DNA from: Amoeboaphelidium occidentale
Lineage: Eukaryota > Aphelidiomycota > Aphelidea
Assembly: GCA_023515795.1 (NCBI GenBank)
Contig: JALGPX010000162.1
Coordinates: forward strand, 1 to 20,945
Direction: 5' to 3'
Length of the DNA stretch: 20,945 bases
Below the pieces are notes generated by a model. The model was not told where the DNA came from and did not search any database. It saw nothing but the letters and a program-made list of their open reading frames with translations. A program made the position numbers and the translations under genes. Positions 6,993 to 19,261 of the stretch are shown one piece after another. The first letter of the stretch is position 1; every line of letters begins with the position of its first letter.

Positions 6993-8215
6993 CTTTTATA
7001 ATTCTAACCAAAGTTAACCTGGCGAGACTAATTACTTTGACGTCTCCAAAATTATCTCCGGAATACAAGCAGTCCTCAAACAAATAAACATTTATCCTGG
7101 CAAAATTATTATCAATGAGGGAAAAAGGTTCGATGCTATCACTTGAGGTGTCCCACAGGCGGCTTTCTGCATCTTCTCCTCCGCTAATAATAAAATTCTT
7201 CCAAGACACGGCGCTTCTTAGTTAAGAATTATTTCCGGTATAACGAAATAGAGCTTCCCCAGAGAGAGAGAGCGTCCCATTGAATGACTGTTTTATCCAT
7301 AGAGCCAGTGAATAAAGCCTGTGATTTGTAGGCTAAATTATGAATGTTATTCTGATGAACAGCATCAAATTTTTTTGTTAACTGACCAGTACTAGTATTC
7401 CATTTGAATAATTCCGTTTTTGAGCCAGAAGAGTAAAGTTCTTGGTCGAAAACAGCGACTGAGAATACATCAGCAGAATGTCCTACATAGACCCGAATTA
7501 TTTCACCATTCACAGAATTCCAACAAATTATCGTTCTATCGGCAGAGCCTGAGAAAAGTAAATTATTCCACACGAATAATGAATAAACAGCGACTGTGTG
7601 CCCATTAAGCCTTAGAATAGTAGCCCCGCTTTCGATGTTCAATTTTACCACGTAAGGAGGCACATTTTTTGCTACAAAAAGAGAATCTGAACCAGCAGTG
7701 ACATAGTAAACTTGTCCACTAAGAGCTATAAAGTCATTAATTCATCATAGATGGTTACATATGGTCTTGACGACTCTTCCAGAAAATAAGTCAACTTGTC
7801 TGACTCTCTCATCATAGCCACCTGCAAAGACCTGGTCATCTTGAAATATTATGCTTCGTACAAAAGTGTCAGACGACCTGAGCCGAATTCTCTTCAGTAT
7901 TGAACCTGTCTCAAGATCCCAAACAATGATCATGTCATCATAAGCAGAACTGATCATTCTTGAGTCTTCAGTGACCACGAAAGAGTATATTGTATTCATA
8001 TGGGCCCTGAATGTTCTTTTAATAGCGCCAGTCCGAATATTCTTCTGTACAATATCGTTTGAGACTGTCATCAACAATGATTCTTGATAGACCGCAATGG
8101 ACTGGACAAGTGAAGCCCCATCTTGCAACAAGAAACTCTTCTCATGTTCTAATGCTGAGACTATGAGGGCGGCCATGGCAGTGAAAAGGCACTTGAGAAT
8201 ATCTTGAAGTTTCAT
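6993..8215 (-). pseudogene. truncated, frameshifted paralogue of the WD40-kinase receptor (signal peptide plus WD40 blades)
   Basis: Begins at ATG 8215 (MKLQDILKCLF...) with a signal peptide ending near 'SALEHEK', the same 'HEKSFL' junction as the full-length gene. Exon 1 is 8215-7759. A 33-base GT...AG intron (7726-7758) sits at the same place and phase as intron 1 of the paralogue. Exon 2, 7725-6993, encodes WD40 blades of the 'LFSGSxDxTxxxW' type and ends at a donor matching intron 2 of the paralogue (candidate 35-base intron 6958-6992). Beyond it homology ends, so the remaining blades, membrane span and kinase are missing. Two lesions are visible: the (AG)6 tract at 7261-7272 puts the reading out of frame, and a TAA near 7219-7221 falls where the paralogue has a glutamine. 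It might still make a short secreted WD40 protein, but pseudogene is likelier. Confidence 0.75.
7261..7272. repeat. (AG)6 dinucleotide tract at a frameshift
   Basis: Read on the minus strand as (CT)6 inside the truncated WD40 gene. The reading frame that matches the paralogue ('SGE...YTG') is out of phase across this tract, so slippage here is the simplest cause of the frameshift. Confidence 0.8.
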
Positions 8216-8502
8216 TGAAAGTTGTTGTTGAAACAAGAACATGCACAGCTGTGTGTTGAAAACATTACGAAGTTCTTCAAAAAGTAAAAATGAAGCAGAT
8301 TATGGTAGTTCTAGACTATGCTAAGGTTTTTTATTAGCTGATATTCGTAGAACACAAGCAGACATCTTCGTAAGCGGTTTTCAACTTTGATCAAACAAAC
8401 AGCCTTCTCGGCTAAAGCTGAAACCAAAGCGTTCGTTTCAGGCAGAGTTCATGAAACTCAGAGAGACTGTTATACTTGTATCTTTGCCCTCCTTACACAT
8501 GC
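8216..8502. other. intergenic between F-box-like and WD40 genes
   Basis: About 290 bases holding the putative promoter and 5' leader of the truncated WD40 gene. The leader ends in TTTCAA-rich sequence before the ATG, as in the paralogue, but no specific promoter element could be defined. The long plus-strand open frame across 8387-8635 is the antisense of the F-box-like gene's last part and is not called. Confidence 0.4.
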
Positions 8503-9722
8503 TTATCTTGATCCTATCACATCTTCATTGTGCCCATCGAGGTTTTCGTTACCAACCAAGTACCTTTCGCAAGCCATTAGAAAACTGGCAAAGCAGTTAC
8601 GTTTCAGCGTGAACTCTGTAGTCCCAAAATCATAATCATTTAGAACTAATACATCAGGATAAAATATTTCTCTAATTTCATCGTCGACAATGCATCATAT
8701 CCAAGTGTAGGGGTTTGGATTATTGATACTTTCATTTCCATTCGGTACGAAGAATCGCCACTCAGGGCAAGATTTCAATAGAGACATAAAAGCTCGGGGG
8801 TTATCTCTGGTGTCCACAACTTCATACAATACACAGGTCGTTTCACGCACACAACCTTCAAAAACGAGGCATATTTAGCCTACACTTTCCTATGATCTCT
8901 TCTAACAGGACTTAGTATAAATAAGCCAGTGTAAGGAGTCGCTTTAATTTTAGGACGGCACACAGAATACGCAGACGGAAAGTAATCCAGTTTCTGAACT
9001 AAATTCGGAAGATGTTCTAAACCTTTTTTAAAATCCAAACGGTTTCGGGCAACGTTGAAAAAAAAGATGCCTTCAATAATGTACAATGCAACTTCATGCT
9101 GAAGATTTCTGTAGTTCTTCTCCTCGGCAAAATTGAACCTATAAATCAAAATATCGAACTGTTCTGGATTTTGTATCTTTGTTCCAAATTCTCTTTTCCT
9201 AACAGCAAAATTATAATCCGTGTAGAACTGATCCTAAAAGAAATTCCACTGCTCTGCTCCCACCAAGTCGGAGTTTTCCTCTGATAGCTCACAAACAATT
9301 TTATACATAATATTCGTCACATTCTCCGAGTACAGGAATTCATCCGAAGCTCCGGCGAAAACGTCCTCAGTTTCAATACCAAGCCGTTCAAGTTAATTTC
9401 ATATTAGTGGTGATATCCACATTTCTGAAGACTCGAGTTTGTGAATCGAATTGTTGTAGAAGTACATCGCGACCTTATCGTTGTTGAACGTAAATCTCTC
9501 CACAACCTTTTTCCAATTCGGTATCTTGTCACGATATAAGCGAATTATTGGAATGGCCTTCTTTGGAATCTGTTGTTTTAAATAGCGGCAATAAAACGAC
9601 ACGTCAGAAGTAGCTGCGAGAATATTTGGGCTAACTGTTTGAAACTGGCCAAGATCGTCCAATTCAAGATAAATCGAGATCATCCGCAACATCTCTGGCG
9701 GGAGGTTTAAAATAGACTTTTT
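8503..9722 (-). pseudogene. F-box protein gene, copy C (N-terminus lost at an N, several lesions)
   Basis: The left-to-right end is a TAA at 8503-8505. The right end runs into the N at 9723. The first readable residues are an F-box: LNLPPEMLRMISIYLELDDL followed by GQFQTVSPNIL. F-box proteins normally hand substrates to SCF ubiquitin ligases through Skp1. About 350 further residues with no recognised substrate-binding repeat follow. Interruptions are TGA at 9399-9401 and TAA at 9393-9395, a TAG at 9234-9236 that could lie in a 30-base GT...AG intron (9234-9263), a TAG at 8880-8882 followed by a frame change, and a TGA at 8695-8697. Protein-like reading continues after each, up to 8503. Unrecognised introns may explain some of these, but not the frame change. 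A pseudogene, or a poorly assembled gene, is most likely. Confidence 0.6.
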
Positions 9723-9723
9723 N
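9723..9723. other. single N: assembly gap within F-box copy C
   Basis: An N interrupts the sequence three codons before the SILNLPPEM F-box start. Bases to its right are unrelated to the 5' end of the other F-box copies, so the join is suspect. Confidence 0.9.
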
Positions 9724-10182
9724 TAAGCTTAAGTAAGAGTAGTTTACGGGGAGGTTTGTTTTCGCTACTATTCTTTCCCTTCACCCTCTATGATCCAAAT
9801 GATCGCGAAAGAGGTACCGTATCATACTACTACTCGATAGTCTTTTATTTCAGCTACTCAAAGAGTAAGATCTGTCTTTTTTTCTATCACCCTTATCCTA
9901 TTAAAAGGACGCGTTAGTGCACCACACAGTTGGGAGTGATTTTCCAATTTTACACTCTCCTCAAATCGAGGTTCCAATCTGTGTCTTCACAGTAGTCGCG
10001 CTGGACGGTTACTGAGGTGAAGCTGGAGATGTTTAACGGTTGTTACAAGAAGTTACTTTTACTCGGACAATTTAAGTTTTTTACTCCAGGCCCGATATAG
10101 TGACGATCAAACATCTGGTTTCTGTGTTCGCAGCTGTTGGAATTGTTACCTATGTACAAGCATATTTATTCAATAAACAACC
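9724..10182. other. no gene supported
   Basis: About 460 bases between an N and the end of F-box copy B. Stops occur in all frames. A short minus-strand open stretch around 9945-10005 might be a remnant of the F-box C-terminal part, but I could not establish it. It contains pyrimidine-rich stretches and nothing else recognisable. Confidence 0.5.
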
Positions 10183-10549
10183 TTACGCCCCTAAACCTAA
10201 CCCTTCTTGGTTCCCTTTTCTTAGGTCGTGAATTCTTTCATACACCGACTCAAATGTGTTAGAATTGGGAGTGTGACATAACTCATTTTCAAGTTTTACA
10301 AATAAGGCTCCCATTTTGTATCCTAATTGTTCAATTTCACATTACGTTATGGCCTCCTCATAAAGAATTTCATCGATGCCCTTGTTCAATTCGTTTTGTA
10401 GAAATAATGCGCAAATTCCAACGCGTCCTTGTGTAGTCGCATTAAAACACCTTTCCAATTCGATATCCTGTCACGATATAAGCGAATTTTTCGAATAGCC
10501 TTCTTTGGAATCTGTTGTTTTTAATAGCGGCAATANTTTTTCTTTCCAT
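10183..10549 (-). pseudogene. F-box protein gene, copy B (internally deleted or gapped, degenerate)
   Basis: ATG at 10549 begins MERK, matching the start of copy A (MERRTS). After the N at 10536 the sequence resumes about 45 residues further on, in the region matching copy C 'KQQIPKKAI...IRLYRD'. The F-box itself is therefore missing at the N. The reading continues with one TTA-to-TAA-type stop just after the N, a TGA after 'YFYKTN' and a TAA after 'EEAIT', and ends at a TAA at 10183-10185. Similarity to copy C is clear over the first ~50 readable residues and weaker afterwards. The lesions indicate a decayed copy. It lies 124 bases downstream of the partial kinase, as copy A lies downstream of the complete one. 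Confidence 0.6.
10536..10536. other. single N: assembly gap within F-box copy B
   Basis: Separates a start codon plus four codons of an F-box gene from sequence that belongs about 45 codons further downstream in the paralogue. This suggests missing sequence or a wrong join. Confidence 0.9.
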
Positions 10550-10673
10550 TTCTTTAGCGAATATGAAAGGCACTAATGCAAAGCAGATGAGTAACATAAT
10601 CGTTTGGAAAATTATAACAATGATTGACTGAGACAATGCTCGTTATAAATCGTTTTGCAATATATTCAATGCA

Positions 10674-11219
10674 TTATTTCCATGGCGCAGTTCTAGTGAG
10701 TGCTTCATATGTAACACAGCCCAAAGAGTAAATATCATATTTCTTGAAATCAACGCTATTGTAATTCTTGGACCTAAAATTTCCGAACGCTTCAGGTGAA
10801 GCGTAATTAGTTGAAAGACCTTTGAGATTGATCACATTGAATGCCTTGGTTGCAACTATTTTTTCAGACAGAATTTGTGTTATTCCAAAGTCTGTCAGAT
10901 AACAGGATGGAATACCATTCTCGACTTCAACCAAAACATTCTGAGTCTTGATATCACAATGAGCCAGAAAATTTGAATGCATCGTTTTTAACGCAAACGC
11001 AATTTCTTTCAACACTTTCACAGTGGATATTTTTAGTAAATTACGTGAGAACAAGAAACTGTGCAATGAACCGTCTGGATAATACTTGAGTATCATTGAA
11101 AGAGGATTCTCAGTGAATCCAATAATTTTACAGAAATGTGGAAAGGTATTCAACATGATCATTATTCCAACTTCTTGATAGAACGCCTCCTCTAGATTCT
11201 TGTTCTTGATAAAGATCAC
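10674..11219 (-). CDS. partial protein kinase domain: 3' end of a second WD40-kinase gene
   Basis: About 181 codons open from the N at 11220 to a TAA at 10674. It is nearly identical to the kinase end of the complete gene at 11460-15201, starting at the VIFIKNK strand just after the expected ATP-site lysine. It carries AHCDIKTQNV (catalytic loop, HCD in place of HRD), LTDFG (metal-binding DFG), SPEAFG (activation-segment end) and DIYSLG. It ends in TRTAPWK then stop, at the same place as its paralogue ends in TRTMPWN. The 5' part (WD40 blades, membrane span, glycine loop) is lost at the N, so it is a truncated copy or an assembly fragment. No lesion is seen inside the readable part. Confidence 0.8.
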   Translation of the reverse strand: MIFIKNKNLEEAFYQEVGIMIMLNTFPHFCKIIGFTENPLSMILKYYPDGSLHSFLFSRNLLKISTVKVLKEIAFALKTMHSNFLAHCDIKTQNVLVEVENGIPSCYLTDFGITQILSEKIVATKAFNVINLKGLSTNYASPEAFGNFRSKNYNSVDFKKYDIYSLGCVTYEALTRTAPWK

Positions 11220-11220
11220 N
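11220..11220. other. single N: assembly gap between kinase fragment and F-box copy A
   Basis: Joins the middle of a kinase domain (left) to the middle of an F-box gene start (right), both on the minus strand. Neither gene is whole across it, so sequence is missing. Confidence 0.9.
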
Positions 11221-11335
11221 CGAGAATATTTGGGCTAGCTGTTTGAAACTGGCCAAGATCGTCCAATTCAAGATAAATCGAGATCATCCGCAACATCTCT
11301 GGCGGGAGGTTTATAATAGATGTTCTTCTTTCCAT
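11221..11335 (-). CDS. F-box protein gene, copy A (N-terminal fragment)
   Basis: ATG at 11335 opens MERRTSIINLPPEMLRM, followed by the rest of an F-box (Skp1-binding helical motif), identical in most positions to copy C, and runs into the N at 11220 after 38 codons. It shows the true N-terminus of this family: the F-box begins within ten residues of the start. It lies 124 bases downstream of the WD40-kinase stop on the same strand, the same arrangement as copy B after the kinase fragment. No lesion is visible in the part present. Confidence 0.7.
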
Positions 11336-11459
11336 TTCTTTATTGAATATGAATGGTACTTATGCGAAACAGATGAGTCGCATAATCTTTTGGAAAATCA
11401 CAACAATGATTGACTGAGACAATGCTCATTATAAATCGTTTTGCAATCTATTCAATCCA

Positions 11460-14400
11460 TCAGTTCCATGGCATAGTTCTGGTAAGAACTTCATAAAAAA
11501 CACAGCCCAAAGAATAAATATCATATTTCTTGAAATCAACGCTACCGTATTTCTTGGACCTAAAATTTCCGAACGCTTCAGGTGAAGCGTATTGAGTTGA
11601 AAGACCTTTGAGATTGATCACATTAAAAGCCTTGGTTGCAATTACTTTTTCAGACAGAATTTGCGTTATTCCAAAGTCTGTAAGATAACAGGATGGAATA
11701 CCATTCTCGACTTCAACCAAAACATTCTGAGTCTTGATATCACAATGAGCCAGAAAACTTGAATGCATAGTACTCAACGCACGAGCAACTTCATTCATTA
11801 CTTTTACAATAGATCTTTGTCCTAATTTACGTGAGAACAAGAAACTGTGCAATGAACCGTCTGGATAATACTTGAGTATCATTGAAAGAGGATTCTCAGT
11901 GAAACCAATAATTTTACAGAAATGTGGAAAAGTACTCAACATGATCATTATTCCAACTTCTTGATAGAATACCTCCTCTAGATACTTGTTCTTAATAAAG
12001 ATAACTTTCTGCACAACGGTGTCACCAAATTGTTTGCTCATGGCTGAATCCATAATCTTGCACAAAAATATTTCTCCACCGCCACCTTTAGCTAAAGGTT
12101 TTATCTTCGCAATCAATGAACTATCGATGAGAAAGGTAGCGTGCTTTGAAATACCCATGACAGAATTAATGACCGTTTGTATGTCAGTAGTTGTTTCCGA
12201 CGTTGAAGCTGGGATTGTCTTTCCTATTGGTGTATGGCGGGAACCGACTCTTCTTCCAATGAATTTAAATCCGACTGCTCCAATAAATAGCAAGAAAAAG
12301 ACCGCAATCATAGCTCCATAAAGAAGAGCGTGAGTTGATTGCTCACCCGACGCTTTCACGTCTCCTTTTCTTATAACCTTGGCCACTTTCTTATTCCTAG
12401 ACGAGACTGTGCGTTCAATCATGGTTGATTGCTCACTTCCTCGAAGTTCAAAATCAGGGGAAAACAGAAGTACAGAGAAATCTTCACTTCCAGCAAACAC
12501 AGAGTTATTGTAGCAAAGAATAGTTGTGACTGATCTCGAGAATCCAAAGAATACATCTTGATGTTTGCCTGTTAAAGAATCCCACCTTCTGACTGACAAA
12601 TCTGAGCCAGCAGAGAATAGAACATTATTACAAAGAGATAGCGCGTTCACAGGTCCCACGTGACCAAGTGATCCAGGCAATTCTCTTTTGAGTTCCCGCT
12701 CGAGTATTCTCTCTGCCCACGACCACTTAACTATCGTCTTGTCGGTTGATGCGGAGTAAATATTTTGTCCATCAAGAAGTAATTCATTAATCTGAGACGC
12801 GTGCTTTTTTAACTCAAAAGAAAGCTGGAAACTGCTTGAATTAAAGACAGAGACTACCCCAAACTTTGTTCCAACAAATATGTACCATTCATTCACTGCA
12901 ATACAATTAGCGGGAACTGGTAGTACAAATGTCGTTGGCTTCTTCTCATCATCACTCAAATCAAGAAAATGGATCTCTATTTCTTCACCTAAGGTAACCA
13001 AACTATTAGAAAAAATAGTCATGATGTTAAGTCTCAGTGCTTCATTGCGAAAGACAGTAAGATCCATGAATTTTAAGTGCGTGGCTGACATTCTCATTAT
13101 CTTGCCATCCATCCCACAAGAGTAAATAAAATCGTTATCAGTAATTATGGAAGTGACTTCAGCCTGATGAATTATTAATGAACTTAAAACAGAGCCATTG
13201 CTTGTGTGAAATGTAGAAATAACTCCTCCCCTCGTCCCGACGAGAAGCAGATTTTCTGTTGCCGCAATGGCCGAAACGGAGCCATTGCTATTCTCAAATG
13301 AGTATGACACACTTCTGAATACCATATTCCACTTCTTAATACTTCCGTCATGACTTGCCGAATAAAGCACACCGGAACTATCAACTGCGAGAGATCTGAC
13401 AAAATCTCGATGCCCGTTGTAAGTTTCAAGTATTGTCAATGTGTTGATATCTCTGACTCTTATAGAAGAATCTGAATGGCCAGAAAATACTCGATTATTC
13501 GAAGAAATGATACAATAACAACCAAATACCTCTACACCTTAGCTGTGCAGTAACGTCAAAAATTACCTTTAACAGAAGCTCCGCGCTCTGCCGAAACTAC
13601 ACCATACTGTTCAAGACCGTAAGATCCAACAATAATGAAAATTCCATTGACGTAAATTGAGGTGATTTCTTCATCAACTAAAAATCACTTGCATCAAAGC
13701 GCAAATTACCAAAGTATGTTTGAATTGGCTGCGATATTGATACGCCCCATCTTTTAGCAAAAAAATCAAACGATCCTGAGTATAAAAAGTCTTCATGAAA
13801 TTCCACAGCTGAGATGTAAGTCGAGTGCGCCTTGAAGTACACAATGTTATTAAAAGATTGGAGACTCCATTGAAAGATGAATCCATTGCTATCAGCGGAA
13901 AAAAGATCTCTATCGTTTGCAGTAAGCGAGGTGACGGTGGATTCATGACCTAGATTTTAGACAAAAATGCTATTCACTTACCTGCTAGAATATTCAAAGC
14001 CGAGAATGTTGTCAAATTCCATTGCCTTATGAGTTTGTCAGAGTCTCCGGAAAACAACGAATCTTCATATACGAGGATTGAATTAACAGAGTCCTGATGT
14101 CCTACAATAACATATGTTGGTGAACTGGCATCTTTTTTTGAATCCCAAGCATTAATATTAGAATCTCCTCCTCCAGACAAAATATAGTTTTTCCACAAAA
14201 CTATGGAATTGAGTTGCTTATCGCGTCCAGAGTATTTTTTTAATTGTTCACCAGTGCTCGAATTCCACATTATGGCAGATGCGTCCTCTGCTCCGGAGAA
14301 CAGCACTGTATCCTTATGAGCGAAACACCTGATGTAGCCAGCGTGGTAATCAGGGAATGTTTTCAATATCAATCCGTTTTCAATGTTCCACTTTATGATG

Positions 14401-15201
14401 CTTCTATCGCGTCCTGCTGAGTAAAGCACATCATCCTGTACTGACAGCGAAAGAACCCCGTCTTTATGGCCGTCGTATATCATTAAGGCGAGGCCATTGT
14501 TTGCATTCCAGCAGATTACTGTCTTATCTAAAGACGCCGAAAATAGACGATTATTATCCAAAGCAAGGCCATAGACCAGCTCTGTGTGTAAACCCAAAAG
14601 CATCAAGACTCCTCGGGTAGAAATTCGAATCTTTGATATTTTGGTGCTAGAAAAAGTTGCAGCAAACAGGAAATTTTCATCAGCAGCCACAGTTGACAGT
14701 GGATAAACGAGGTCTAGAATTTGTAAGCATCAAGTACAAAACTTTACCGAATTCTTTCACTATGCTTCCAGTAGCCAAATTAATTTGTCGAACTTTGGAG
14801 TCCATACTGCCAACAACAGCATGAGTACTAAACAAAGACATACATGTAACTCTAACATCACCAGGACCTAGCCTTATCCTTCTTATGATCGATCCACTTT
14901 CTAGATCCCACAATATGACATACGAGTCTGAACCGGCTGTAACCATTTGAGAGTCATTATTAACAATAATCGAGAAGACTTGATTACTGTGTGCCCTAAA
15001 GGTTCTCTCAATAAGACCTGTTTCAATGTTCTTCTGAACAATATCAGCTGAGGATGTAAGCAACAAGGAATCCTGGTAAAGAGCTATCGCAAAAACGTTA
15101 GCAGTATCCTCCTGAATGAGGAAGCTCTTTTCATGATCAAGTGTAGTTGCCAGAGGGAAAAGTATTATTGCAAGCAGCAGGATCGAAAGCAGTCGCTTCA
15201 T
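11460..15201 (-). CDS. WD40-ectodomain receptor-like protein kinase (five exons)
   Basis: I join exons 15201-14748, 14713-13982, 13949-13710, 13677-13567 and 13537-11460. The GT...AG introns are 34, 32, 32 and 29 bases. The joined frame is open for 1204 residues and ends in TGA. Each splice removes stops or a frame change and rejoins a WD40 blade (e.g. LAG|HEST and VKG|VEV). A signal peptide (MKRLLSILLLAIILFPLATT) comes first. About 21 WD40-like blades follow, many ending in 'LFSGSxDxxxxxW', enough for three seven-bladed propellers, to about residue 890. One membrane span lies at about 916-940 with FIGRR on its cytosolic side. A kinase domain spans about 985-1204: glycine loop GGGGEI (~997), HCD catalytic loop (~1110), DFG (~1132), SPE and DIYSLG. 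The protein ends at MPWN, some 50 residues short of a normal C-lobe. The topology recalls luminal-sensor kinases such as IRE1/PERK, but no RNase domain is present. Ligand and substrates are unknown. Confidence 0.8.
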
Positions 15202-15714: not shown

Positions 15715-17994
15715 CTAGCATTTTGATTTCTTTCGCGGAAATCCTGCTTCAGGTTTTCCTACTTCATTATCACCGATCGAATGGTTTGTTGTTTTTCCTG
15801 TTGTGACAGAATTGTCGTTAAATCTTCGCTTATTGGCATTATCTTGTTTTTCTTCTTCAGTAGAGAGTCCGTCTTCAAGCGAAGCCTTCGAAATTCCAAT
15901 ACCAAGGTTACTTAACACTGAAACGCTAGAAATCTGAGGCGTAAGATTCAATGATGAAGCGGCAGTTAAGCGCTTGGCAAGGTTCGAATCACTTTGAACA
16001 TGTTGAGGAAACGGAATGGATTGAAATGTTTTAGACAGGCTCTCCATAGAAGCGTTGCCATTAATTATGTTCAAAGAGGGATAAGTATACTCCAACTTAT
16101 CATCATTAGTAGTACTGTCTTTGTCCGCCATCAAATGCTTCAAGTATCTTTGCAGTAGATTCTGAACTTGAACCTTCGAAAACGGCTTGCCCAAAACATC
16201 GTTCATTCCAGTTGAAAGATAAACACTCAAGTCTTTCTCTGCAGTATTAGATGTCATGCTTATTATGGGAACTTTCTTATCAAGCCTTCTGATTTGATTA
16301 GTTGCTTCTACTCCATCTAGTAGAGGCATCACGATATCCATGAGGATTAAATCGTACTTTTGGCCTATTGATGACGGATTGTTCCTGTCGTAAGAAGCTG
16401 TTAACATGACTTTCTGGACAGCCTCTACGCCATTAGTTGCCAAATCAATCGAACAATTGAACAGCTGCAAGAGTTTTGACCCGAGCAACCTGCAGGTAGC
16501 ATCATCATCAACCAACAGAATACGAGGAGTTCTTTTCCATGGAATAAGACTATCATTTGCTCCTTGTTGTGCGCTCTCAGCTTCGCCTTGAAATTTCTCG
16601 AAGAATGGAGAGTTATTTCCTACCGACGGCGAAGCTGAACACGATTGAATGTTGTCCATGCTCGCTTTGAATGGCGTTACTTTGAAGTTGCGAAGCACAT
16701 AATCTTTGAATTCTTCATAATCTCTTGTCACATCTTCTAGTTTCTTTCCCAACTGCTGAATCAAATAAAAAGCATGTTGTAGGTTGGTAACAAGGGCATG
16801 AGTATCAATTGTAGGACCAGTATTGGCGATATTCTGAGTGGAGCCGTTGACGCTTGTTATAGACATATGTGACAATGTCCTCTGTTGCTGTTGACCTGTT
16901 TGGACTTCTTCATCAGCTTTCGCAGGCTTCTTGCGCTTAATCTGAACCATCAAATCTCTCCTACCTTTTCTAAAGAGATCATGCTGGAACTCCCATTCTG
17001 AAACCGTTGATGTCCCACCAGAAGATGAACCGACTTTAGTGTCATTTTTCTTAACTTTCCTAAATCCATACTTGTTCAACTGTCTGATGAAAGATGCGAA
17101 ATTATTATGCTTAAAGTAAACCGGTAGAACTATAGAATGAGAAGATTAGAATAGAAATATCTTACTGGTCCTTGCAAATTCGATCTGATCTACAACAACT
17201 ACACACAATAAGCTACTTTCTGTACTGATGGTCTTACCAAAAGATTCTCCATTCTCACTCCATCGTACCAACTTTTTATCAGTATCCTCCGCATTCAGGA
17301 AATTGAATATCTTTGATACAAACTCTGAACCTTGAACCTCTTTAGGCGATTCAGTCGAACTGGCGGAAATTGGTGTAGGTTCCATCACAACTGCTTGTTG
17401 AGGTACAGTATTAGCAGATGCAGATCCAAAGAACGGTGCCGGAATTGTAGAAGTAAGTACAGGAGCCGGTTTGGGAATGAGTGCTGCAGGCTTGTCCATA
17501 ATCAATGGCTGAAAGTTTGGAAAAAGCTGTCGATCCAGACCCAATGTAGAAACGCTTGATCGGCCGCGGTAAACGTTAGAAGTCTGCTGCGTCAAAGGCA
17601 AACTGTAAAGTTCCGGAATTATAGGAGGTGAAGGATACACAATTATATCATGAGGATTTTGTACTGGAAGCATTTTGTAAGGTCGCGTACCAATTGCTTG
17701 AACTTGATCTTTGCGCGAAGTTGAATACAACGGTCTTTCTTGAAATCCTGATGGATACGAACCTGCTGTAGTTAAATTATCGTTCATATTGTTCAAATGA
17801 GGCGCCGAAGTGTTCTTTGTAAAGTTGATCTTGCTGCTGTTGTTTTTCTCAAAGCTCTGATGTTCCAGAGGGCAAAACTCATTGATCATGACGTCTTGTT
17901 CAAAGAAAGGATTACGCTTCTCATCCAAAGAAGTTGGCGTCAGTGGGATCTCCCGCGGGTAGTTCAAATTATACCATTCGTCGTTGAAGTCCAT
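15715..17994 (-). CDS. SKN7: Skn7/Prr1-type transcription factor: HSF domain plus response-regulator receiver
   Basis: I join exons 17994-17238, 17198-17166 and 17129-15715. The introns are 39 and 36 bases; the second has a CTAAT branch-like site. The product is 734 residues. The first ~220 are low-complexity, rich in P, S and N. An HSF-type DNA-binding domain follows at ~222-320: FVSKIFNFL, then across the splices [26 protein letters not shown] and NKYGFRKV. The intron-1 acceptor at 17199 was chosen because it gives FVVVD; the next AG would lose it. A helical, coiled-coil-like stretch lies at ~371-408 and a receiver domain at ~465-590 with VDDD, the phospho-acceptor Asp in LMDIVMP (~526), SMTSN and GKPF. 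In fungi this protein takes phosphate from the Sln1-Ypd1 relay and controls oxidative, osmotic and cell-wall stress genes. The long N-terminal extension before the HSF domain is unusual compared with yeast Skn7. Confidence 0.88.
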
Positions 17995-18043: not shown

Positions 18044-19261
18044 TTATTGAATCTCTTTAGTATTAATTGCGAAATCTTCGGTAGAGATGGTGTTTTTCAT
18101 TCCAATATCAGCATCACTGCTTTCGGATGCACTATCAGAAATCAATTCTGAACCACTAACGTCCAAATCCGGCAAACTGGAAGGACGAGGAACATTGAAA
18201 GTATCTTCAACGCAATACTTCGCTTTGTACCACTTGGACAATTCCCTTAAGCCCTTCTCTAAAGAAGTTTTTGGACTGTAACCCAACTCCTTGTGAGCCT
18301 TTCCAATATCAGCAAATGTCTTGTCGACATCACCTGGTTGGTCTGGCAATTGTTTAATCAATGCTTGTTTCCCTGTAACTTTCTCAACCAAAGCAATGAA
18401 TTCGTTCAATGAGACAGGTGATGAATTTCCCAAATTGTAAATACGATGATCACATTCTTCGAAACCCTGTTGGTATGGTCTCATCAAAGACTTGACAATA
18501 CCATCAACTATATCATCAATGTAAGTGTAATCTCTTGACGATAACCCAGTTCCGTACTTATCAATTGAAACACCGCGAATAATGCGATCAACAAACTTGA
18601 ATGGAGCCATATCAGGTCTTCCGCGTGGACCATAAACTGTAAAGAAACGCAAACCAGTAAAAGAGACTTGCTTGAAGAGTTTTGAGTAAACAGCGGCCAT
18701 GGTCTCTGTAGCCTTCTTTGTACCAGCATACGGAGAAACACAATTGTCAATACAATCAGTTTCTTTGAATGGAACTTTAACATTACTGCCGTAAACTGAG
18801 GAACTTGAAGCATAAACCACGTGTTTCAATTTAAATTTTCCGGCCAAATCGAAAATCACAGTTGAACCCAAAATATTCGAGTGAACATAAACATCAGGAT
18901 TCTCCAAAGAGTAGCGAACACCAGCACGCGCAGCCAAATGAACAATGCTTTCAACCTTGTGCTCTGATATTATTCTGGCCATTTCTTCTCTATCGCAAAT
19001 GTCTAGCTGATAGAATGTAAAGTTTGCAAATCGTTTCAAGCGTTCCAAATTCTCTTGCTTAATTGAAGGATCATAGTAGTCATTCAATTCATCGATACCA
19101 ATGACGTGATGACCTTGTTGTAAGAGTAGTTCTGAAGTTGCGCTTCCGATAAATCCCTACGTCAGATTAGTCATCATTTCTATATGTTGATAAATACTTA
19201 CAGCTGCGCCAGTAACTAAAACATTTAGGCGTAATGATGAAGTATTGAGTGGTGGTGACAT
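18044..19261 (-). CDS. UDP-glucuronate 4-epimerase-like NAD-dependent sugar epimerase
   Basis: I join exon 1, 19261-19202, and exon 2, 19156-18044, across a 45-base intron with GTAAGT donor and ACTAAT branch-like site. The product is 390 residues. The splice completes the NAD-binding loop VTGAA|GFIGS (residues 16-25), split exactly inside the motif. Later come HLAARAGVRYS, the catalytic SPYAGTKKA (Tyr ~163, Lys ~167) and RFFTVYGPRGRPDMA, all typical of extended short-chain dehydrogenases of the UDP-glucuronate 4-epimerase group, which make UDP-galacturonate. RDYTYIDDIVDGI follows. The last ~60 residues form a Ser/Asp/Glu-rich tail (SDSASESSDAD) beyond the usual end of the fold. It lies 49 bases upstream of the Skn7-like gene on the same strand. 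Substrate specificity between UDP-GlcA and UDP-Glc is inferred from motifs only. Confidence 0.88.

Follow-up and report, generated by a model that had tools for sequence, protein, structure and literature searches.

A putative receptor-like kinase of the aphelid Amoeboaphelidium occidentale with a predicted three-propeller WD40 ectodomain and a kinase domain that ends after helix F

Introduction

IRE1 and PERK are type I membrane proteins in which a β-rich lumenal sensor, not known to contain WD40 repeats, is joined to a cytosolic kinase. The plant receptor kinases CRINKLY4/ACR4 carry an extracellular β-propeller, one membrane span and a TKL-type kinase, and in the protein PkwA of Thermomonospora curvata the WD40 part comes after the kinase. 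The WD40 part of T. curvata PkwA has been crystallised as residues 441–742 (PMC6113231), and associations of kinases with WD40 repeats are described as known in prokaryotes and much less frequent in eukaryotes (PMC5587647). Here, we analysed a stretch of 20,945 nucleotides (nt) from the aphelid Amoeboaphelidium occidentale (GenBank assembly GCA_023515795.1, contig JALGPX010000162.1, positions 1 to 20,945), referred to as the window. Judging from its sequence and from structure models, the product of a minus-strand gene (15201–11460) is probably a receptor-like kinase of type I membrane topology, in which a WD40 ectodomain of three propellers is joined to a short TKL/tyrosine-kinase-like kinase.

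The protein resembles IRE1 and PERK in its predicted type I layout and differs from IRE1 in lacking a ribonuclease (RNase) domain. Compared with PkwA-type kinase-WD40 proteins, its order is reversed, and it has three predicted propellers and a short kinase; the kinase also precedes the WD40 part in a metagenome match (P0049). CRINKLY4/ACR4 have a single propeller of another type, TNFR-like repeats and a complete kinase, as opposed to the three predicted WD40 propellers and short kinase found here. An earlier interpretation of the window, made from the letters alone (the sequence-only reading), had regarded a WD40 array outside the membrane tethered to a kinase as an unusual sensor, a judgement that we share, and had placed it in no standard family. 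No curated family with this layout was indeed found, but the protein belongs to a large aphelid family.

An aphelid is a single-celled parasite of algae. The abstract of the 2022 study by Mikhailov and colleagues reportedly states a conspicuous expansion of aphelid receptor-like kinases, and these receptor kinases are said there to be uncharacteristic of fungi. The way in which aphelids sense their hosts is therefore relevant to the loss, or original absence, of such receptors in fungi. Aphelids are described as the sister group of Fungi that kills algae from inside, and the sets of receptor-like kinases are noted to differ between aphelids and fungi (PMC10608142, citing for the latter Mikhailov et al. 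2022, Curr. Biol.). By term search, the main text of the Paraphelidium transcriptome paper (PMC6299283) mentions neither kinase, receptor, WD40, Kelch nor NHL. Literature searches, with a coverage outside which Mikhailov et al. 2022 itself falls, did not find the layout or the kinase truncation described. Aphelid receptor-like kinases as such are known; what appears to be new is one that joins a predicted three-propeller WD40 ectodomain to a kinase without the canonical helices G–I.

Gene structure and domain order

The sequence-only reading had joined several apparent genes into one protein of 1204 residues by removing four tiny introns. The present analysis agrees that this is a single gene, with four phase-1 introns of 34, 32, 32 and 35 nt, each GT..TAG (Table 1). 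Five paralogs carry the entire layout in single open frames of 1207–1248 codons, and the exon junctions of the window gene are continuous with these uninterrupted sequences. The TAG acceptor of intron 4 lies 6 nt beyond the draft splice; it was preferred because the two extra residues given by the draft acceptor are absent from the five intronless paralogs and from the NCBI relative P0001, which reads LKEPFGCYC at this junction. The corrected protein has 1202 residues and the C-terminus PWN.

The order of the protein was confirmed as a hydrophobic N-terminus, a WD40 array, a single span, a conserved juxtamembrane segment and a kinase. Among 13 full-length proteins, mean pairwise identity was highest in the kinase (58%) and the juxtamembrane segment (47%), followed by the propellers (32, 32 and 38%), the span (15%) and the stalk (14%).

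A kinase domain that ends after helix F

The kinase domain proposed by the sequence-only reading was recognised from about residue 984 (Pfam Pkinase, expectation value (E) 3.2e-25), but the match covers only profile positions 18–198 of 263. This C-terminal shortness, absent from the earlier interpretation, is the most unusual feature of the protein. An AlphaFold2 model of the exon 5 stretch 11463–13538, the first two residues of which fall within intron 4 of the corrected gene model, had a mean predicted local distance difference test score (pLDDT) of 80.6. It contained a membrane helix at residues 403–427, and its last helix, at 669–686 of 692, was assigned as helix F. The same helix is the last one in the model of a full-length relative, P0009.

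At the DNA level, the stop codon was located 1–8 residues past a conserved Trp in all 32 copies counted and exactly one residue past it in 21; all three stop codons are used. Helices G–I (subdomains X–XI) are therefore absent. Left out of the 32 were two repeats of the window and one locus-edge place seen twice, the kinase of L020, which is cut by the frame (residues 1–100 only), and the kinase beside L022, whose alignment ended at 212 and whose end is SWS-stop. Also excluded was a distant neighbour of L011 (identity 32%, beginning at query residue 66), where PY leads into a final tail of some 23 residues and the Trp is missing.

From the final base of the Trp codon up to the stop, 19 of the 32 copies contain no GT. 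The other 13 do contain one, so that a splice site is possible there from the letters alone, which is a point against a truly short domain. A profile of helices G–I made from eight kinases of the same genome gave no match up to 1.5 kb downstream of the copies. It recovered eight of eight leave-one-out controls and only two of nine TKL-type or bacterial-type controls, and it was therefore rebuilt from eight other tails. The rebuilt TKL-type profile, which found all eight of its controls at E 0.014 or better, gave matches no better than chance within 600 nt downstream, the lowest E being 0.038 on the wrong strand and 0.68 on the right strand. As neither profile gave a credible downstream match and 19 copies have no GT before the stop, a hidden further intron carrying helices G–I was rejected. 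Read-through or recoding of the stop was also rejected, because each of TGA, TAA and TAG is used at this position and no continuation common to the copies was seen behind it; the two kinase copies of the window do share downstream DNA, being recent duplicates. Used as controls, two more distant but complete kinases of the same genome covered positions 3–257 (L043) and 3–258 (L044) of the 258 in PF07714, and eight other aphelid-type proteins reached at most position 224, even P0164 with its 112-residue tail.

Active-site conservation and selection

The β3 Lys, the helix-C Glu, HCD, the Asn and DFG were invariant in all 29 aligned WD40-receptor kinases. The ratio of nonsynonymous to synonymous substitution rates (dN/dS) was about 0.37–0.41 for the two kinases of the window (0.072/0.196 and 0.074/0.180) and 0.12–0.27 for six of 406 kinase pairs, namely those with dS between 0 and 1.5. 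The invariant catalytic residues together with the low dN/dS suggest a conserved function, most simply catalysis, and the reduced kinase is probably still catalytic. EGFR, TYK2, B-Raf, BMX, EphA2 and JAK2 are among the solved kinases closest to it in profile.

Substrate docking and the Arg partner of the Glu in APE both reside in helices G–I of typical kinases. A kinase without them could be unstable or inactive, which tells against a catalytic role. A related and rather doubtful explanation is that the domain is a non-catalytic scaffold that binds adenosine triphosphate and signals via a recruited complete kinase. The absence of helices G–I from every one of the 32 copies counted would suit such a scaffold, as would two tandem relatives that have DFR and DFS instead of DFG. 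Scaffold kinases, however, usually lose some catalytic residues, whereas the complete catalytic set is kept in 29 of 29 receptors and the measurable pairs are under purifying selection. The tandem relatives lie at L042 (contig C188:11700–15500), one with a Kelch-like ectodomain in view, and are possible pseudokinases within the same family.

The predicted WD40 ectodomain

WD40 repeats were recognised by Pfam in the window protein with E 1.2e-42. The earlier estimate of about 21 blades was borne out by the AlphaFold2 model of P0009, in which the ectodomain has 84 strands (21 blades of four) and is followed by one membrane helix and the kinase; the first strand (24–27) lies within a low-confidence stretch. 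The structure prediction that had been proposed as a check has thus given WD40-type blades and a membrane helix in a full-length relative. In a structure comparison that barely touched other regions of this model, residues 313–581 aligned over 265–268 residues with solved WD40 domains (root-mean-square deviation 1.6–1.7). From the model, we infer that the 21 blades are grouped 7+7+7 as three propellers. Two alignments spanning residues 20–869 hint that an N-terminal strand may close the third propeller; this closure is not claimed, because the N-terminal segment has a pLDDT below 50.

Two analyses of the ectodomain gave results that count against the receptor reading. Loop variability showed no clear ligand-face signal, the top loops being slightly less variable than the bottom ones (difference −0.21 bit, permutation p 0.047), and N-glycosylation sequons were not enriched relative to the reversed motif (7 vs 11).

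Predicted signal peptide and membrane topology

Residues 4–22 of the window protein are hydrophobic (mean Kyte-Doolittle value 2.26), and by hydropathy, used in place of a dedicated predictor, seven of ten proteins, including that of the window gene, have an N-terminal hydrophobic stretch. In several relatives it is followed by a sequence of the type LDHEKSF or LEHEKSF. The single membrane span of the sequence-only reading was upheld at residues 914–932: a span-grade stretch (at least 2.4) was present at the same position in all ten proteins, and a helix was found there in both AlphaFold2 models. Summed over the ten proteins, 17 Lys or Arg residues occur in the 15 residues before the span and 37 in the 15 after it, which is suggestive, and only suggestive, of a cytosolic kinase.

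Several observations weigh against this topology. The assignments of both the signal peptide and the span rest on hydropathy; the N-terminal stretch is below the 1.6 cut-off in three of the ten proteins (P0003, P0007 and P0011), and weaker hydrophobic stretches (1.66–1.83) occur inside the propellers or the kinase in four of the ten. The charge bias of the window protein itself is slight, with three Lys or Arg residues before the span and four after it. It is nevertheless very improbable that the protein is intracellular, with an N-terminus that is no signal peptide and a hydrophobic stretch before the kinase that is no span. WD40 domains are usually cytosolic, and such a location would agree with the lack of sequon enrichment and the three relatives in which the signal was not scored. 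It would leave the span-grade stretch at one place in ten of ten proteins to be accounted for, although the letters there are only 15% identical in the largely overlapping set of 13. A stretch of 2.19–3.54 was also found about 90–155 residues before the glycine loop in ten Kelch, NHL and distant WD40 members.

The kinase family in aphelids

The sequence-only reading had proposed a profile search for similar proteins, and the search for relatives showed that the protein is not alone. With the window kinase as query, 72 related kinase places (E 3e-60 or better, at least 49% identity) were found, spread over 38 contigs that hold as many as six each; 62 match the query nearly end to end and 10 are partial, and 13 shorter kinase pieces stand outside this count. 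The genome searched comprised 11.3 Mb in 204 contigs, and the copy counts are lower bounds; the published A. occidentale assembly has 13.56 Mb in 951 scaffolds with an N50 of 73,507 (PMC10608142). A genome search gave 62 matches, 38 of them above 600 bits; together with the five uninterrupted paralogs, this speaks against a layout produced by chance. In these 38, to which the ectodomain check was limited, the WD40 part accompanies the kinase to a varying extent, often exon by exon.

These copies could be decaying, with the short kinase as a shared gene remnant, and the window does hold broken pieces of other copies (7232–8299 and 10680–11225), while among the 72 places some are incomplete or carry stops. 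This is hardly credible in view of the intact frames, the invariant active site, dN/dS values well below 1 in the measured pairs, and the fact that the kinase ends at the same position in transcripts of another genus.

The closest protein match, among the matches listed, is 83% identical and comes from A. occidentale (locus tags MP638_); no match named A. protococcarum occurred among the best 120 of 229 protein matches or in two further relative searches. Eight loci (L039–L046) hold nine kinases of lower identity; in seven the end comes no more than 17 residues from PW, and the remaining two are complete. In protein records, which cannot show a stop codon, 53 of 71 aphelid-type proteins end no more than 8 residues past the Trp. 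The other 18 include A. occidentale gene models that are cut or end elsewhere (P0001, P0002, P0012, P0014, P0016, P0042 and P0043) and proteins that continue past the Trp for 24 (P0046), 18–30 (P0101, P0121 and P0122) or 112 residues (P0164). In P0124 and P0163 the end lies close to this position but the Trp is missing, and four records from Paraphelidium fall short of it.

Paraphelidium (EukProt Partr_v1) has ten transcript-derived proteins with related kinases, seven with recognised Kelch domains. Six of its proteins (P0125, P0155–P0159) end 1–2 residues past the Trp, and Kelch was recognised in five of these. The kinase is also shared by NHL-propeller proteins from metagenomes (P0101, P0121–P0123 and P0164), with tails of 4–112 residues, and a Kelch or NHL propeller can precede the short kinase just as WD40 does. 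As far as the letters can tell, this is a kinase family in aphelids of which most of the members examined lack helices G, H and I, and the WD40-receptor members keep every catalytic residue. A plasmid search returned 147 matches, the five listed being 28–29% identical, and a glycine-pattern scan of the genome yielded nothing useful.

In a tree of 35 kinases from which sparse columns had been dropped, 27 short kinases and the complete L043 and L044 formed one group (100/99). As these two, the nearest complete kinases of the genome, fall inside the clade, one origin of the truncation is not shown, nor is it rejected (approximately unbiased test, p-AU 0.36). The single short-kinase clade of a first tree, with 13 complete kinases (100/99), was set aside, as the column cut-off of that tree may have left the missing part in and the nearest complete kinases were not among its entries. 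Two further kinases (G000:C177:13416–14084 and C15:8932–9576) had open-frame values of 4694 and 3198 residues, far above those of the WD40 receptors.

A stress sensor of the secretory pathway that works in the manner of IRE1 or PERK and keeps its propellers in the lumen of the endoplasmic reticulum would share the topology of the window protein (β-rich part, one span, kinase), and to that extent the resemblance drawn by the sequence-only reading holds. Beyond topology it is not supported, and such a role is quite improbable. The protein ends at the kinase and, as had been stated, lacks an RNase domain (PF06479 was not among the best 25 of 35 families), whereas the single IRE1-type RNase domain found in the genome (PF06479, E 1.8e-40) lies elsewhere, on contig C106, next to a complete kinase. 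Dozens of copies are unlike a housekeeping unfolded-protein sensor; the 72 kinase places and the Kelch or NHL ectodomains of the wider family point to a variety of ligands and not to a single housekeeping function.

Proposed mode of signalling

For the receptor-like kinase that we favour, a signal peptide would send three seven-bladed WD40 propellers outside, to the surface or the secretory lumen. One helix would cross the membrane, and the conserved juxtamembrane segment would lead to the cytosolic kinase. Kinases would be brought together when the propeller ectodomain binds a ligand, perhaps from the algal host, prey or the environment, or when it clusters; they would then phosphorylate each other and a downstream protein. 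The C-lobe surface normally occupied by helices G–I would be covered by a partner or by the juxtamembrane segment, the latter, being well conserved, as one candidate. The sequence shows how the gene is built and its domains are ordered, how many copies there are, that the kinase is truncated and that its active site is conserved; the surface location, the catalysis, the ligand and the partner are what we infer.

More tentatively, aphelids may possess a large class of catalytically competent kinases that end at helix F and carry interchangeable WD40, Kelch or NHL ectodomains. The missing surface of their C-lobe might be supplied by the juxtamembrane segment, by a partner in a dimer or by a protein acting in trans, and binding of the partner could switch the kinase on. 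If true, a conserved kinase without helices G–I, present in dozens of copies and in two genera and with an intact active site in the WD40 receptors, would show how little of the kinase fold signalling needs. The kinase idea is testable with a fragment of about 220–270 residues.

Feature coordinates and the rest of the window

Table 1. Positions in the window of the receptor-like kinase gene, its predicted parts and a second kinase copy.
Feature	Position	Strand	Basis
Start codon and predicted signal peptide, residues ~1–21	15139..15201	-	Hydropathy only
Exon 1	14748..15201	-	Junction continuous with five intronless paralogs
Intron 1, 34 nt, GT..TAG, phase 1	14714..14747	-	
Exon 2, WD40 blades	13982..14713	-	Paralog alignment
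Intron 2, 32 nt, phase 1	13950..13981	-	
Exon 3, WD40 blades	13710..13949	-	Paralog alignment
Intron 3, 32 nt, phase 1	13678..13709	-	
Exon 4, WD40 blade	13567..13677	-	Paralog alignment
Intron 4, 35 nt, acceptor moved 6 nt	13532..13566	-	Paralogs and P0001
Exon 5: last blades, stalk, membrane span, kinase, stop	11460..13531	-	AlphaFold2 of 11463–13538
Predicted ectodomain, residues 22–913, three WD40 propellers, introns within	12330..15138	-	
Transmembrane helix, residues 914–932	12273..12329	-	Mean Kyte-Doolittle 2.53; helix in AlphaFold2 exon 5 model
Juxtamembrane segment, conserved motif TDIQTVINSVMGISKHA	12120..12272	-	47% mean pairwise identity vs 14% in stalk
Kinase domain, residues 984–1202, ends after helix F at PWN	11463..12119	-	Pfam, AlphaFold2, conserved catalytic residues
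Stop codon TGA, one residue past conserved Trp	11460..11462	-	
Second, partial kinase copy, 87% identical, end PWK-stop, 5' part cut near N at 11220	10680..11225	-	

Single N letters at 9723, 10536, 11220 and 20495 resemble contig joins, and the N at 11220 would be an assembly join. In the region 9400–11460, fragments of receptor and F-box genes are intermingled, and a misassembly is possible there. A broken WD40 part of another receptor copy, with two interrupted frames, lies at 7232–8299 on the minus strand; no kinase frame of at least 100 residues was seen after it.

An F-box gene (9402–9710, minus strand; PF00646, E 1.9e-4) adjoins the receptor gene, with remnants at 11213–11314 and 10386–10544, also on the minus strand. 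Of the 28 F-box matches in the genome, 16 follow a piece of a WD40-receptor kinase downstream on the same strand, at a distance of under 2 kb. The recurring receptor/F-box gene pair could be a duplication unit or reflect a functional link.

Elsewhere in the window, an ALMT/FUSC-type membrane protein is encoded at 106–2094 on the plus strand. A protein with a response regulator and an HSF-type DNA-binding domain (PF00072, PF00447), which we take to be like fungal Skn7, is encoded at 15718–17145 on the minus strand. A nucleotide-sugar epimerase/dehydratase dependent on nicotinamide adenine dinucleotide (PF16363, PF01370) is located at 18047–19156 on the same strand.

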